Below are positions 57,354-64,000 of a stretch of 64,000 nucleotides of DNA, in pieces. The notes beneath the pieces were generated by a model. That model made no database searches and was not told where the DNA came from. It saw nothing but the letters and a program-made list of their open reading frames with translations. The stretch's first letter is position 1. Every line of letters begins with the position of its first letter. A program made the translations under genes and the position numbers. Source of the stretch: Candidatus Uhrbacteria bacterium (GTDB lineage Bacteria > Patescibacteriota > Patescibacteriia > 2-12-FULL-60-25); contig JADZEJ010000001.1 of assembly GCA_020850575.1 (NCBI GenBank), forward strand, positions 124,001-188,000, read 5' to 3'.

Positions 57354-60269
57354 TTATTCTTGTACTGGATCAGGAGCCGAATCTGGAGCAGATATTTGTT
57401 CAGGCGTATTCGTTACTTCTGGAGTAACGGTAGGCGCCGTTTCTGTCGGAATCGTATCAACCTGAGGTTGTACATCTGGAGCTGTGATTGCTTCCTGTTC
57501 GGAAACTGGCTCGTTTGACTCGGGTAATTCTTCTATAGACGAATTCTCAGATTCTATTTGAGCTGGTTCTGGAGTTTGAGCTGGTTCTGGAGTTGGAGCT
57601 GGTTCTGGAATTGGAGCTGGTTCTGGAGTTGGTTGTGTTACTGGTACTGATTGAGTCGGTACAATCGATTCTCCATTGTTCTCAAAACCAACTATGAACC
57701 AGTTAAACCAGAGTTCAACTGGACAAGGGCTTAAGGTGGCACATATACCACCTTGTGGTAAACGAATCTCGAAACCGGTTGTCGTAACATTCGTTACATA
57801 ATATGCACCATTCCAAACAGAATGATCATATCCAAGACCATTTGATTTATCTACGAGCTCCGGCGAGATGTATACGTGTGGGACAAATGACGTTGTATGA
57901 GCAAAAGCTATTTTTACTGTAGATTCCCCTGGTTTTACTTGGAATCTACCAGCATTTGAAGCTCCAAAAATTACCGGTCCATTTAATTCGAGTGAACCTT
58001 TAATGGTTACTGTTCCCGTAAATTCTGCATCTACTACGGATAAGTTTTGAACATTCAAACTTTGAAGTGCCTGTGGAGTAACAGTATACGAAACATGTGT
58101 GCTATTTCCACCTTGGCTTATGATTGAAGTAGATGTTGTAGTTGATAACGTCAGAGTTGATGGTTTTGTAAAAGCTTTAAGATAATATCCATTCTGAACA
58201 AACATCATGACCTTACCAGTTGTTATCCCATTTTCGGCTTTCAGTGAACTTAGAGCACGACCAACCATCATACCGTCTTCTGTGGCTTTCATGACAAAAC
58301 CTGGGATCGGTGACATGGTCAACGCATCACCAATTGAAATATCTCCATTCTCAAGCGAGACTTTCACCGGAACACGACCAGCCAATGCGACCAATGCGGG
58401 TTTGCCTTCGCGTTGTTTTCCATCAGACATTACTAAACCAGGACGAGTTGCAACCACACCTATCACTTGATGCGCATTCGTCTGCGAAGCTCGTACAACT
58501 TGTTCTTCATTTTCAATATCAGTCGCTATTACATCACCCGCTTCAATATCATCAGTTGAATAATATACTTCTGCCAAGTCCGCACCGACATTAATCTCTT
58601 GAGTTGTTACACTTCGATTACTCACAATAGGAGCGCCTGAATTTGTTTTCGCACAAATTGTATATCCTGTCGCTGTTGTGGTGGCGGGTGCGTCAACAAA
58701 GGTTCCTGTGATCACTTCTTCACCTGTTGTGCTTTGAATTTGATTTACCGTATCATTACCGACTTTCGTACCAGAACCACAGGTATTTGTTGAGCCACGC
58801 CATACTTGGACGGTGATCGAACGAACAGCTCCTCCCGAATTTCTTACTTGAACATTAAATGTAACCAATACTTCCGTATTTATATTGGAAGGCGTTGTCG
58901 TAACAGTTGATAAATAGGTTTGGGTATTAATTGGTGTTAAGGTTACATTATTCGTCGCACTTGTCGTTTTCACATTACCGCTTATATCCGTTTTACATGC
59001 AAATCTTCCGGTAGAACTAGACCATGTTAATTTTTGATCTACACCACTGCAATCGGTGATAGACGATAAACCGGCTCCATAGAAACTTGAACTAACGTAC
59101 AAATTGACTGATGTTACGTTGCCTGCATTTACGGTTGCAAAGGTACTTGATGTAATAATTGCATTTGAAGAAGTTAGATTGGTGATATTTCCATTGGTTG
59201 CAGCAAAGGTGGTTGCAAAGAGATTGGTACTGGTGGTGTTGGTTCCAGTGGCATTGACCCAGGTAATGTTTGTTGGATTGAAGCCACCTGTGAGGGTTAG
59301 GTTGGCAATGGTGGCATTGGTGGCTGCAAAGTTCGTTGTGGTGGCATTGGTACTCGTGACATTGGTGAAAATACCCGTACTTGGGGTGATGTTGCCGATC
59401 TGCGTTCCATTCAGTGAACCACCGGTGATGGTGACAAAAGAAGAAGAGAGATTATTTATTGTTCCATTTGCAGAGAAAAGATTCGTGCTGGTTGTATTAG
59501 TACCAGTTGCGTTAGTCCAAATGAGACCTGAAATATTTGCCTGTAAAAAATTTGAAGAATTTGTAACTGAAATACTGGTGAATGTTGCATTTGTTGCTTG
59601 AATATCCCCAGTGAAAACAAAATTGCCAGTCGAAGTCCCTCCGGCAAAAATTATGGGATTTGTCGTGCTATTACCAGCATTAGTAACTGCTTGTAGTGTT
59701 CCTGAAACAGAAGAGTTGTCTAAGGTAACCCATGAAGAAATTGATGCATCGTAATAATTTAAACTTCCATTGGATGTATTGTAGTACATTCGACCGCCTG
59801 TTGCGGAAATAGGTGTAATCGCGGATGACTGTACTCCGGCTGTTGTCATAGAGTATGCAACACTATTTACCGGAACTCTTGGCGCCATTTCTCCGTCTGA
59901 ATTTACTTCTGAGGTTAAATATAAGGGTTTGGTAAAATCAACGACATTGGTCAAAGGAGTAACGCTTCCTAATTGGACTGCAAAAATACCCTGATCAACA
60001 GTGACAGCAGATTGTGTTTCAGACCAAACTGATGAGCCGCCACTTAATGCTGTATATAAACGAAACTTAAACGTATAGGAACCAGTGAGTGCAGTTCCGT
60101 TGGAATCTTTTAATCTACCCTGGTATCCCAAGGTTTGAGGGATTTCATCTGCGTAGACAGGTTTACTGATTTCAGTTCCAGGTACACTAAACAAAGACAT
60201 CGTTATCGAAACGAGCAAGCTATAAACGACTTTTTTCAACATCGATTGAAAAAGATTTTGTTTATTCAT
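57354..60269 (-). CDS. Large secreted repeat protein with proline-rich tail
   Basis: The 971-residue product begins with a signal-like segment (MLKKVVYSLLVSITMSLFSV) and a family domain YQGRLKDSNGTALTGSYTFK..LYTA, common in long surface proteins of candidate phyla. The middle (about residues 195-385) is made of Asn/Thr/Ser-rich repeats of the kind WTNATGTNTTSTNLFA. A beta-rich region follows (YSTDDIEAGDVIATD, LAGRVPVKVS), then a domain whose end resembles the C-terminal beta domain of the protein at 62751-64000 (VKIAFAHTTSFVPHVYIS...WFNWFIVG). A tail of PEPAP repeats and acidic Ser/Thr sequence closes it. Probably a fibrous surface or adhesion protein. Confidence 0.8.
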   Translation of the reverse strand: MNKQNLFQSMLKKVVYSLLVSITMSLFSVPGTEISKPVYADEIPQTLGYQGRLKDSNGTALTGSYTFKFRLYTALSGGSSVWSETQSAVTVDQGIFAVQLGSVTPLTNVVDFTKPLYLTSEVNSDGEMAPRVPVNSVAYSMTTAGVQSSAITPISATGGRMYYNTSNGSLNYYDASISSWVTLDNSSVSGTLQAVTNAGNSTTNPIIFAGGTSTGNFVFTGDIQATNATFTSISVTNSSNFLQANISGLIWTNATGTNTTSTNLFSANGTINNLSSSFVTITGGSLNGTQIGNITPSTGIFTNVTSTNATTTNFAATNATIANLTLTGGFNPTNITWVNATGTNTTSTNLFATTFAATNGNITNLTSSNAIITSSTFATVNAGNVTSVNLYVSSSFYGAGLSSITDCSGVDQKLTWSSSTGRFACKTDISGNVKTTSATNNVTLTPINTQTYLSTVTTTPSNINTEVLVTFNVQVRNSGGAVRSITVQVWRGSTNTCGSGTKVGNDTVNQIQSTTGEEVITGTFVDAPATTTATGYTICAKTNSGAPIVSNRSVTTQEINVGADLAEVYYSTDDIEAGDVIATDIENEEQVVRASQTNAHQVIGVVATRPGLVMSDGKQREGKPALVALAGRVPVKVSLENGDISIGDALTMSPIPGFVMKATEDGMMVGRALSSLKAENGITTGKVMMFVQNGYYLKAFTKPSTLTLSTTTSTSIISQGGNSTHVSYTVTPQALQSLNVQNLSVVDAEFTGTVTIKGSLELNGPVIFGASNAGRFQVKPGESTVKIAFAHTTSFVPHVYISPELVDKSNGLGYDHSVWNGAYYVTNVTTTGFEIRLPQGGICATLSPCPVELWFNWFIVGFENNGESIVPTQSVPVTQPTPEPAPIPEPAPTPEPAQTPEPAQIESENSSIEELPESNEPVSEQEAITAPDVQPQVDTIPTETAPTVTPEVTNTPEQISAPDSAPDPVQE
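59100..59640 (-). repeat. Tandem degenerate repeats inside the 971-residue protein gene
   Basis: Units of about 60-120 bases encode TNATGTNTTSTNLFA-like motifs several times, with near-identical DNA in places (for example GTTGGTTCCAGTGGCATTGA-like stretches recur). They are in frame, so changes in copy number would alter protein length without breaking the gene. Confidence 0.65.
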
Positions 60270-60648
60270 TTGAAGCTTCCGTTTTTATTTCATTGAAAGT
60301 GAGTTGGTTATTTTATTTTTACTCAATTTCAATTATTTTAGTATACACTTTTTTTTCCTTTTTTATAACTTTTTTTTTAATTTATTTCTCAACATTTTTT
60401 TATTTTTTTTAAATTTTAAAACCCGTCTCATTTTTGACGGGTTTTTTTATTTTTTTTGATTGTTGAGACCGCGTCTTCCCCCGACCCAATAGCTGGAATT
60501 TTATCCCGCAACTGAGACGGGGTCAGCATGGTCTAACTTTGTTTTTTGATTTTTGTTTTCTAACTCGGCTTATTGTCGAGCTACGAGAGCTTTTTTTACT
60601 CTTGAGACTATTGTATCGAATTTTTATTCAATGTCATTTACCCTTATT
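60270..60648. other. AT-rich intergenic stretch with terminator
   Basis: The 379 bases between the repeat-protein gene and the cohesin-like gene are AT-rich. They contain the terminator at 60418-60449 and a more GC-rich patch (60470-60530) with possible weak pairing between GAGACCGCGTC and GAGACGGGGTC-like segments. No gene was recognised. Confidence 0.5.
60418..60449 (-). terminator. Bidirectional terminator after the cohesin-like gene
   Basis: AAACCCGTC, loop of about seven, GACGGGTTT, with T runs on both strands. On the minus strand it follows the stop of the cohesin-like gene by 200 bases. Confidence 0.7.
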
Positions 60649-61941
60649 TTATCGAAGTTTTACGATGTTCTTGGTTTTTTTCTTCTTGGGGATAACTTTT
60701 ACTGTGTTTGTGGATATGTTTTCCTGTTTTTTGTGTCGAGTTAAGCCAAGTAGGATCAAAAGTGCTGCAATAATGATTAGAGCTAAGAGATACATTATGA
60801 GACTTGTATCGAATTGATTGGTTTGAATTTGAGGAGTTATGACGTGTTGTTTTATGACCTCAAAGGTCGTTGTTGCTGCCGTGCGATTTCCCGCATAATC
60901 GATAGCTTCAACTTTCGCTTCATACTTCATCGGATTGAGATTTGAAATGTCATAAAACGAAAGTGCGGTTGTCGTTACTGCAATCCCATTTAGCGACACT
61001 TCGTATTTCGAAATACCGGAAGTTTTATCAAGTGCTCCAAAACGAAGTTTATTAGGAATAGACGATGGTATCAGATCTTGATCGGATTGGATGGCTACAG
61101 ATGTCGGAGCGGTTTGATCAATTTGGATGCGGAGATGTTCTCGTTTGATGCTTCCGTCTGCAAAAGCAAGAGTTAGGTGCGCATAATATACTCCATCGCC
61201 TGGTAAAGTGATATGCGTGCTAGTGGTAGGAATAACTACTAATTCAGAAGCACCCTCCGGGGTTTCATCGAAACCGAAATAGGCTTTGTTAAGCTTTTTT
61301 CCTTTAATTTCCCACGTTACATCAACCTCACGATTGGAATACCACAAATCAGGATTTGGATGCGTTGGACTTAAAAAACGAATTGCCGCTTCACCTTCGG
61401 GAACAATTGATGGTAGCGGACGCGGTTGCTCAGGCTCATTTTTTGCCTCAACTACCTCTATATTTAAACGTCCAATGCTTCCAATTTGTTCTTCACCAGC
61501 TGAGAGCATTTTTGAATTTGTCGTCAATTGAACAAAACCGCTTCCCACTTTTTTTGCACGAAAGGTTAGTACAGCTAATGCAGAGTTTCCATTCGCCCTT
61601 GAACTGAGTGTAAAGGCACCAAAACTAAAAATTCCTTTTGCTTGATCTACGTAGGTGCCAGGTGAAACATTTTGAAAAACCCCTGCTGGCTTTGATGCCT
61701 TGTAGTCAAAAATTTCATTGGTGAATGAACCGTTCAACCGTACGGTATCGACATCTTTTGCACCGGATGTATTAAAAACTACGTTGAACGTTTGACCGAC
61801 GGTGACTTTTTTTGGACCAGTTGGAAAGACGTTTGCAGCTGCAAATACGCAAGGAATCCATCCCCCATTTGTCCACAGGATAAATGAAGTCACAAGATAT
61901 CCACAAACATATTTCGCTATGTTAAGCTTTTTTGTTTTCAT
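60649..61941 (-). CDS. Membrane-anchored cohesin-domain-like surface protein
   Basis: The ATG at 61941 (MKTKKLNIAKYVCGYLV) is used; a further in-frame ATG at 61968 overlaps the previous gene. A signal peptide is followed by a cohesin-like domain (about residues 35-165). It is recognised by KKVTVGQTFNVVFNTSG, later FSFGAFTLSSRANGNSALAV and LTFRAKKVGSGFVQLTTNS, the pattern of VGDTFTVxVN and GxGxLxxITFKVK in cohesins. Two beta or Ig-like domains follow, one with ISKYEVSLNGIAVTTT. A C-terminal membrane helix (LIMYLLALIIIAALLILLGL) and basic tail anchor it. It lies right behind a dockerin-like gene. Confidence 0.75.
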   Translation of the reverse strand: MKTKKLNIAKYVCGYLVTSFILWTNGGWIPCVFAAANVFPTGPKKVTVGQTFNVVFNTSGAKDVDTVRLNGSFTNEIFDYKASKPAGVFQNVSPGTYVDQAKGIFSFGAFTLSSRANGNSALAVLTFRAKKVGSGFVQLTTNSKMLSAGEEQIGSIGRLNIEVVEAKNEPEQPRPLPSIVPEGEAAIRFLSPTHPNPDLWYSNREVDVTWEIKGKKLNKAYFGFDETPEGASELVVIPTTSTHITLPGDGVYYAHLTLAFADGSIKREHLRIQIDQTAPTSVAIQSDQDLIPSSIPNKLRFGALDKTSGISKYEVSLNGIAVTTTALSFYDISNLNPMKYEAKVEAIDYAGNRTAATTTFEVIKQHVITPQIQTNQFDTSLIMYLLALIIIAALLILLGLTRHKKQENISTNTVKVIPKKKKTKNIVKLR

Positions 61942-61949
61942 ATATGCGT

Positions 61950-62705
61950 TTAATATGATTGACCCCAATGGGCAACTAAGAGTGATAAATCGACGTCATC
62001 AATTCTGCCATCTTCATTAAAATCTGCATCAACAGAATAGATTTTCCATGCACGGGTGAGTAATGAAATATCAATATCTTCCACAAACCGATTGTCATCC
62101 GCATCTCCGATCAAGCGACGTTTTGGATATCCAATGACTATATTAGATCTATCTGATCCACGTACTTGCTGCACTCTCACCTCATTCATGCCAAGAAATA
62201 ATGGTAATACTTTTTCCCACAGAACAGGTTCGATGAGAGTTACTCCATCCGCTGACCCGTTCACCCAAATTTGATCAGTTTGAGTTGTGCGCGTGCCGTG
62301 TACCACCCCTTTGTTCTTAAAAGTCCAAGCTCGATATTCAACCGTTGGAAGTGGTACTGTTGAAGTTGAATTATTTGGTTCTGCTGTCGTGGTTGTTCCT
62401 GAACCTCCTCCCCCTCCACCCCCACCACCTGAAGAAGGAATTATTACCGGGGGGATACTAGGTGCTGCTTGAGGCGAAGGGACTCCATGCGCCACTCCGA
62501 AATTATTACTCAAAACATTGCCAACGATTGACTCAACTCCACCGATAATTTGAAAATTGTTTGATTGTTGTTTGACCGTTGTAGAAATAAAACTACTGTT
62601 AAAATTCTGAAAATTCGCACTCGTTTGATCTACAGCAACAACCGGGACTGCTCTCAGTACTAAAAGTAATGCACAGATTCCGATATTTACTTTTCGATCA
62701 CTCAT
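61950..62705 (-). CDS. Secreted protein with C-terminal dockerin-like module
   Basis: This 251-residue product has a signal peptide (VNIGICALLLVLRAVPVVA), a Ser/Asn-rich part, a run of nine Gly residues, a Ser/Thr/Pro linker and an Ig-like domain (YRAWTFKNKGVVHGT...LGMNEVRVQQV). Its C-terminus carries two Ca-binding loops typical of a type I dockerin: GDADDNRFVEDIDISLL and DADFNEDGRIDDVDLSLL, each fitting DxDxNxxxxxxD. Dockerins bind cohesins in a Ca-dependent way. The gene ends eight bases before a cohesin-like gene transcribed in the same direction, so the two may be partners on the cell surface. Confidence 0.82.
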   Translation of the reverse strand: MSDRKVNIGICALLLVLRAVPVVAVDQTSANFQNFNSSFISTTVKQQSNNFQIIGGVESIVGNVLSNNFGVAHGVPSPQAAPSIPPVIIPSSGGGGGGGGGSGTTTTAEPNNSTSTVPLPTVEYRAWTFKNKGVVHGTRTTQTDQIWVNGSADGVTLIEPVLWEKVLPLFLGMNEVRVQQVRGSDRSNIVIGYPKRRLIGDADDNRFVEDIDISLLTRAWKIYSVDADFNEDGRIDDVDLSLLVAHWGQSY

Positions 62706-62716
62706 ACCAAGAGTAT

Positions 62717-62749
62717 AACAAAACTCCCGAGTGTGTCGGGAGTTTTGTT
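62717..62749 (-). terminator. Bidirectional terminator between 62705 and 62751
   Basis: AACAAAACTCCCGA, loop GTGTG, TCGGGAGTTTTGTT: a 14-pair stem with T-rich arms. It would end the gene at 62751-64000. Confidence 0.85.
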
Positions 62750-62750
62750 A

Positions 62751-64000
62751 TTAAGGAGTCGTTTCTGTTGATGTTGCTTCTGAAGGAGTTGATGTCGTAT
62801 CTGTTGGTACTTCTTCCGGAGAAGTTGATGTCGTTTGTATTGTCGGAGTATCCGTAATCTCATTTGGAGATTCATTTGGTTGGTTAGAAGGAGTTGATGA
62901 TACAGACTCTGCTTGAACGTCTGACGGTGGAGGTGTCGTACTTGGATCAGGCCCAACTTGTTGCTGAGCTTGAATAACTGGTTGAACTTCTTGTGAACTT
63001 GATCCATCGTCAACAATTAATTGAATGGTGGATGTCGTTCCGTCACTCACCGTAAGTGTGCTTCCTTGACCAGCTCCTAATGCATGCCAATTAAAATCAA
63101 GATCTGCATTGCGCTCCATATCAATTTTAATGTTAAATCCCTTATTATTTTCATCAATCACGGTATATTTGAAATTTTGAGATAATGCCATTTCACCTCG
63201 AGGTGTCACTACAACAATAGGTTGGACAAGATATGGCTGAGCAAAATGTACTTGAACAATTGTCTGATGCGCCTTGATTCGTGCCTGACCAACAGTATCA
63301 CCTGAAGCGATGACTTGAGCCTGTATGACAATATTTCCTTCAAATGTTGTTGTAGCTGCCGGCTGTAGTTTTTTCAAATCAACACTCTGTTGTAAGAGAG
63401 AAATAGTTGAAGAAACTGATTGAATCATGTTTTGTTGTTCCTGAAGTGCGTTGACGAGATACGGAGCAAATCCTGTATAATTAACAGCTAATTTACCATT
63501 TGAACCAGTCTTTACTAAGCCAGGTATAATCGCTTGCACCTCTTGAGCAATAAAACCTGAATGCTTTTCATCGATATCATCCTCTTTGTTCCAGTTAAAT
63601 AGGACTCCTCTCAGTGCCATCAATTTTTCAAGTGAACCTTCGATTTTTAATACGTTTTTTTTCAAACTCTGATCAGATGAACAGACCAGCGCAGAGTTTG
63701 TTGGGTCGATGTCACAAGAGCCATCAGTGTTGGTAAAACGAGCAATTGAACCGGAAGTCGCCGCTGAATACACATGTAATGGAACTGCTGGAGTAGAAGT
63801 CCCTATTCCAAGGAAACCATCACCAGTTAAACGCATCATTTCTGAACTACCTTGCGTTTTAAACTGAAAACTCCCATGTACACCTGTTCCGCTACTAGAA
63901 CCTGCAGTCAATATAATACTTCCCCCGTTATCATTTGTACCAGCTCCATCGGAAGCAATTAACATCATATCTCCACCTGCTCCATCTGTGGCTGATCCGG
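62751..64000 (-). CDS. Secreted protein with S74 endosialidase-type chaperone domain, 5' end outside window
   Basis: The frame is open through the right edge, so the N-terminus is missing; 416 residues are visible. Beta-helix-like repeats (LTAGSSSGTGVHGSFQFKTQ, FLGIGTSTPAVPLHVYSA) precede an intramolecular chaperone domain of the peptidase S74 type: SSDQSLKKNVLKIEGSLEKL, FNWNKEDD, HSGFIAQEVQAIIPGLV and LAVNYTGFAPYLVNALQE. The Ser that would cleave (in SDQSLKKN) is present. In phage spikes this domain folds a trimer and then releases itself. A beta domain like that of the 971-residue protein and a Thr/Pro/Ser tail follow. The remaining tail after the chaperone is unusual, because S74 domains are commonly C-terminal. 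Confidence 0.82.
   Translation of the reverse strand, partial: GSATDGAGGDMMLIASDGAGTNDNGGSIILTAGSSSGTGVHGSFQFKTQGSSEMMRLTGDGFLGIGTSTPAVPLHVYSAATSGSIARFTNTDGSCDIDPTNSALVCSSDQSLKKNVLKIEGSLEKLMALRGVLFNWNKEDDIDEKHSGFIAQEVQAIIPGLVKTGSNGKLAVNYTGFAPYLVNALQEQQNMIQSVSSTISLLQQSVDLKKLQPAATTTFEGNIVIQAQVIASGDTVGQARIKAHQTIVQVHFAQPYLVQPIVVVTPRGEMALSQNFKYTVIDENNKGFNIKIDMERNADLDFNWHALGAGQGSTLTVSDGTTSTIQLIVDDGSSSQEVQPVIQAQQQVGPDPSTTPPPSDVQAESVSSTPSNQPNESPNEITDTPTIQTTSTSPEEVPTDTTSTPSEATSTETTP

Follow-up and report, generated by a model that had tools for sequence, protein, structure and literature searches.

Two adjacent genes on the minus strand of a 64-kb stretch of DNA from a tiny-genome bacterium (the whole stretch analysed, referred to below as the window) probably form a non-cellulosomal, calcium-dependent plug-and-socket unit that would tether to the membrane a protein that is secreted and non-enzymatic. 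We place the probability of this reading at about 80%, and we infer both the binding and the role of calcium. On this strand, to which all window coordinates below refer, docA, cohA and the gene for a 971-residue surface protein follow, in this order, the end of a giant surface-protein gene that encodes a Peptidase_S74 chaperone domain. docA (61950..62705), identified by ORF, Pfam and PDB dockerin sequences, encodes a secreted, dockerin-bearing protein of 251 residues whose sole hydrophobic segment is N-terminal. cohA (60649..61941, with its ATG at 61941), identified by ORF, Pfam and alignment, encodes a membrane-anchored cohesin protein of 430 residues, and the gap between the two ORFs is 8 bp. 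A terminator-like hairpin with a stem of 16 pairs separates docA from the S74 fibre gene (62714..62751; -23.4 kcal/mol, z -8.1), and another hairpin follows cohA (60418..60445; z -4.5); bracketed in this manner, docA and cohA are probably one transcription unit, or short operon. The giant surface fibre gene, of which the C-terminal part lies here (62751..63998 and beyond; domain scan), runs to the contig end with 1640 residues visible, and the fibre-like 971-residue protein is encoded by the next gene downstream of cohA (57354..60269; ORF and domain scan).

DocA begins with a signal peptide (residues 1-24; 62634..62705, from hydropathy and sequence), followed by an SxNF-repeat module (residues 26-75; 62481..62630, from alignment and profile search), a Pro/Gly/Thr-rich linker (62346..62480, from sequence and alignment) and a conserved module with the motif WxYx..VNGS..LPLFLGxN (62121..62345, from alignment), which directly precedes the dockerin without a linker. 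In a profile search, the 50-residue SxNF-repeat module was almost confined to the dockerin proteins of relatives. The pre-dockerin module is positioned like the X module of cellulosomal proteins, and an Ig-like fold was assumed for it. The dockerin itself (61962..62114; Pfam, PDB and loop pattern) carries two F-hand calcium loops, DADDNRFVEDID and DFNEDGRIDDVD, which both match the dockerin F-hand pattern. As in type I dockerins (PF00404), each loop is followed by a helix, here of the DLSLLxxHW type and assigned by sequence pattern only. The two-loop pattern was found in none of the C-termini of 729 other ORFs. Pfam Dockerin_1 scored 20.0 bits in the protein scan and 23.4 bits in the genome scan, slightly below and above the cut-off of 22.9 bits, respectively, and the dockerin family profile retrieved solved dockerins from the PDB sequences (4fl4, E 5.9e-5; 1daq, E 2.2e-4). 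With the ligand residues present in its sequence, the DocA dockerin is predicted to bind calcium.

Known dockerins are internally symmetric because either half can bind (see the title of PDB entry 2vn5). The corresponding two-fold symmetry of helix recognition residues was observed when the 11 residues following each loop were compared in the 19 dockerins that have both loops in canonical form: the segments after loop 1 and loop 2 gave a mean BLOSUM62 score of 36.7 within a protein and 22.2 between proteins, and the within-protein likeness was reached in 0 of 5,000 shuffles.

CohA consists of a signal-peptide-like segment, a cohesin, two stalk modules, a transmembrane (TM) helix and a basic tail, in that order. 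Pfam Cohesin (PF00963) scored 21.5 bits in the protein scan, below the cut-off of 24.1 bits, and 24.1 bits in the genome scan, exactly at the cut-off; the orthologue in a related genome (G025) scored 32.8 bits. A search of PDB sequences with a profile of the full cohesin protein gave mainly matches of the FN3/chitinase type in the stalk and no cohesins, and an NCBIfam search returned nothing useful. The sequence profile having missed the cohesin in the PDB, its identity was settled by fold search. The AlphaFold2 model of the domain (61447..61836), built from five sequences, had a pLDDT of 90.4 and a pTM of 0.83, and its top PDB match in Foldseek was 2vo8, a Clostridium perfringens cohesin (E 3.3e-8). 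When the model was compared with the PDB using VIA-align, the 48 top entries were all cohesins (Z 17.3 to 11.3), the first non-cohesin having a Z of 11.2, and 2vo8 was aligned with a Z of 17.3 and an rmsd of 1.8 over 127 residues. The N-terminal domain of CohA is thus modelled with the nine-strand jelly-roll fold of cohesins. The two stalk modules (60847..61389) are conserved in orthologues and are predicted to be beta-sandwich-like from the alignment and from weak Big_7 and chitinase/FN3-like matches; the C-terminal TM helix and Lys/Arg-rich tail (60652..60816) were assigned from sequence and hydropathy.

These results bear out the preliminary description, which had pictured a secreted protein ending in two dockerin-type calcium loops and, eight bases away, a gene for a protein with a cohesin-like N-terminal domain and a membrane anchor at its end. 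The same description had asked whether the N-terminal domain might be another Ig-like fold, or the loops lack calcium geometry; the fold obtained is that of a cohesin, and both loops fit the calcium pattern.

The occurrence of such pairs was followed in 57 genomes (own genome, family and class) by a Pfam search, and loci were fetched around the matches; a cohesin profile and a dockerin profile were trained on the respective Pfam matches, and gene proximity was then scored. For 31 of the 35 distinct dockerin ORFs in the class, a cohesin was present in the adjoining gene or the same ORF (the raw count of 32/36 included one locus entered twice), and the other four had no cohesin next door. The figure was 14 of 18 for class loci chosen by dockerin alone. 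With approximately two cohesins per 1,000 or so genes, chance adjacency is estimated at well under 1%. A phylum-wide draw contained a dockerin in 44 of 117 genomes, and 21 of the 37 loci fetched from it encoded a cohesin on the same strand, either within the dockerin gene itself or close by, the remaining 16 having no adjoining cohesin. The pair was present in all three named Patescibacteria matches (Parcubacteria, Falkowbacteria and Uhrbacteria records). None of eight dockerin loci from outside the Patescibacteria (Planctomycetes-type, Fimbriimonadales, HR15 and Caldisericia-type records) had a nearby cohesin, a count made with a profile trained on Patescibacteria and therefore of lower sensitivity for these loci, and no relative was found on viral contigs.

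A number of individual arrangements were also recorded. A dockerin gene lies between two cohesin genes in an Uhrbacteria relative (L105:6079-9335), and a small gene, GIY-YIG-endonuclease-like by eye, has apparently been inserted between the dockerin and cohesin genes of G040 (L083:7565-9980). Immediately upstream of a cohesin gene in G005 (L066:3697-7194) is the gene for a surface protein, 1,165 residues long or longer, with a C-terminal dockerin, which could exemplify the large proteins fixed by this coupling. Dockerin and cohesin share a single ORF in G027 (L088:11329-12402) and G050 (L100:8193-9614); the G027 product is almost linker-free and could polymerise with itself head to tail. Up to six dockerin genes lie in succession at L148, L151, L152 and L160 (G117, G141 and G118), where some members in G117 and G141 carry apiosidase, GH5-like or CBM6 domains and the four members scanned in G118 carry a dockerin only. 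Proteins with one or more cohesins and a C-terminal dockerin are encoded beside plain cohesin proteins at L158, L180, L159 and L174 (G114, G111, G118 and G100, respectively), and may form adaptor-scaffoldin-like chains in Patescibacteria.

Trees of dockerins and cohesins from 30 pairs contained the same three main clades, A, B and C, and the distances in the two trees were correlated (Spearman 0.43; the largest value in 2,000 permutations was 0.26). Paralogous pairs, namely both pairs of the own genome (G000) and, in G027, one pair of type A and one of type B, fell in matching clades. Linked genes inherited together could also produce such agreement, with no binding between their products. Type A units have the helix signature DLSLLxxHW and a TM-anchored cohesin protein of 370-500 residues; type B units have the signature NSVDLSIL..LD, a cohesin protein usually of 840-890 residues and a third gene; and type C units have the signature DFSI..YYW and often two successive cohesin genes. 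Loop 1 of type B contains an insertion and does not fit the strict pattern, making calcium binding by this loop less certain. A C-terminal TM segment was present in 22 of 32 cohesin protein entries; those without one include two cut by contig ends and four of type B, and in the type B unit of the own genome the TM segment is carried by the third gene. In the dockerin proteins the sole hydrophobic segment is N-terminal, with the fused dockerin and cohesin ORF of G050 as the one exception. Most simply read, the cohesin protein would be the socket, held by its anchor, and the dockerin protein the plug, secreted from the cell. The calcium-dependent docking system that had been put forward for this locus is supported by the conserved pair, the matching trees and the division into anchored and soluble partners; the binding and its need for calcium are inferred.

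A Pfam scan of the own genome, a search for further modules that the preliminary description had recommended, found exactly two dockerin and two cohesin places, which form two adjacent pairs: the window pair (C1:185480/185977) and a second pair (C4:104609/104990). The earlier view that the cell has no other cellulosome genes overlooks this second pair. The ends of contigs C4 (plus strand) and C1 (minus strand) overlap exactly over 71 bp (C4:110042-110112 and C1:191604-191674, in loci L005 and L006) within a repeated stretch of the giant S74 fibre gene, and the 71-mer has only one other copy in the genome, 99% identical and inside C4. Judging from this overlap, the two contigs are probably adjacent, with both pairs in one surface-protein cluster, and the joined S74 fibre protein would have approximately 2,200 residues. 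The genes probably run in the order docB, cohB, a gene of 314 codons with a TM segment, the giant S74 fibre gene, docA, cohA and a fibre gene. We considered whether the type B third gene (L005:11329-12273) is the frameshifted tail of the cohesin gene, but separate genes of equal size in G002, G026 and G031 speak against this. A giant surface protein gene follows type A or B units in G012 (1701 residues), G025 (1650 and 3108), G027 (2227), G026 (1411 or more), G031 (1687 or more) and G000 (971, and 559 or more at a contig end), and the unit at L105 is followed by a 1306-residue S74 protein, some other contigs ending too early to be judged. The suggested link to the giant neighbours thus holds as a gene neighbourhood for types A and B; the part that envisaged physical assembly did not find support.

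In the mechanism that we propose, CohA would be exported and kept in the membrane by its C-terminal helix, and its cohesin would be held outside the cell on the beta-sandwich stalk. DocA would be secreted, and its C-terminal dockerin would fold around two calcium ions and bind the CohA cohesin, so that the cell would present the N-terminal SxNF module at its surface. Units of types A and B would be genetically coupled to a giant fibre protein, and a second, non-cross-reacting socket would probably come from the other pair of the cluster; each pair may be specific for its partner and may act in surface fibres. An AlphaFold2 model of a fused dockerin–cohesin chain, a natural in-frame read-through from a Falkowbacteria relative (L104) with TAA read as Gln, left the dockerin half disordered (pLDDT approximately 40, pTM 0.60). 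The recurrence of the two-gene unit in many relatives suggests that these bacteria probably fasten surface proteins by cellulosome-type calcium couplings, here without cellulose-degrading enzymes. More tentatively, a kit of orthogonal calcium-dependent pairs, in cassettes of two or three genes, could exist throughout the Patescibacteria and assemble surface fibres or host-contact structures, with the enzyme-bearing versions of some classes being cellulosomes grown from or into this kit.

The modules may be genuine and yet have their partners elsewhere, CohA binding the genome's other dockerin, or vice versa, with adjacency reflecting only a cluster of surface genes. Such an exchange is favoured by the probable location of the second pair in the same cluster; however, the two pairs fall in different clades of both trees, differ in their helix signatures (DLSLL..HW and NSVDLSI..LD) as well as in loop 1, and adjacency is also seen in genomes with a single pair, and we regard this explanation as unlikely. 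A rather improbable alternative is that the unit is a remnant or reduced cellulosome, which once carried, or still carries, polysaccharide-degrading enzymes. Against it, the dockerin proteins scanned in the class contained only Ig, FN3, DUF11 and similar modules and no enzyme domain, and their partners have one cohesin per protein with no multi-cohesin scaffold, except in G050. In its favour, some other Patescibacteria have tandem arrays of dockerin genes in which certain products bear apiosidase, GH5-like or CBM6 domains, as well as adaptor proteins that combine cohesin and dockerin. Expression of cohesins and a dockerin in Olkiluoto Shapirobacterales has also been reported and interpreted as a cellulosome (PMC9123182). 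In the own genome, the domain scan detected no enzyme domain in either dockerin protein, and the two cohesin proteins are single-cohesin proteins with no multi-cohesin scaffoldin among them; the modules occur here outside a cellulosome.

The two domains might also act apart, the dockerin as a calcium-binding adhesin and the cohesin in carbohydrate binding or adhesion. Omnitrophota dockerins have been proposed as adhesins (PMC10066038), and a paper on SEML1_0315, an essential dockerin protein of Southlakia epibionticum, speculates on a glycan role and reads the protein as glycan-targeting (Cell 2023, PMC10633639). Independent action would nevertheless leave the nearly constant adjacency and the matching trees unexplained, and we consider it very improbable.

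Little is settled about the means by which Patescibacteria attach their surface proteins and cling to other cells, and a conserved plug-and-socket pair predicts to which protein each dockerin protein is fixed. Both halves can be made in E. coli, allowing a direct test of binding. SEML1_0315 is among the essential envelope proteins of the one genetically tractable group (PMC10633639), and it is a testable idea that its essential role is cohesin docking rather than glycan binding. A large set of new orthogonal cohesin–dockerin pairs would, in addition, serve well as couplers in the laboratory.

Non-cellulosomal modules of archaea and other bacteria have been discussed (PMC9012536, PMC10066038). 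The Shapirobacterales and Southlakia examples belong to the same phylum and have the dockerin in exported proteins, and the accessible portions of the two reports mention single genes and describe no dockerin–cohesin pairing (PMC9123182, PMC10633639). Our search of the open-licence literature for dockerin and cohesin together with Parcubacteria or CPR bacteria found nothing, and the open-licence literature on Patescibacteria described no paired dockerin–cohesin unit. The domains in Patescibacteria are already on record; what is added here is that they form a conserved two-gene unit, inherited jointly and occurring in several types. As in clostridial X-dockerin dyads, a conserved module directly precedes the dockerin in DocA, and the proposed arrangement would be analogous to a clostridial anchoring scaffoldin, an anchored cohesin that catches a soluble dockerin protein. 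Unlike clostridial cellulosomes, the unit has a TM anchor instead of SLH or sortase attachment, a single cohesin, no enzymes and no CBM3 seen, and type A dockerins have a shorter inter-loop segment. The symmetry of helix residues after the loops resembles that of dockerins with two equivalent binding faces. Non-cellulosomal cohesin and dockerin proteins (of Archaeoglobus fulgidus and ANME archaea, and the GH33/GH84 cohesins of C. perfringens) have the same folds, the top PDB matches being 2vo8, 2jh2, 2w1n and 2xdh, and likewise few modules per genome and no scaffold. The C. perfringens modules are located on secreted glycoside hydrolases, and the docA–cohA unit differs from these systems in that its modules are encoded by a conserved pair of genes, with the cohesin anchored in the membrane and the dockerin protein free of enzyme domains.
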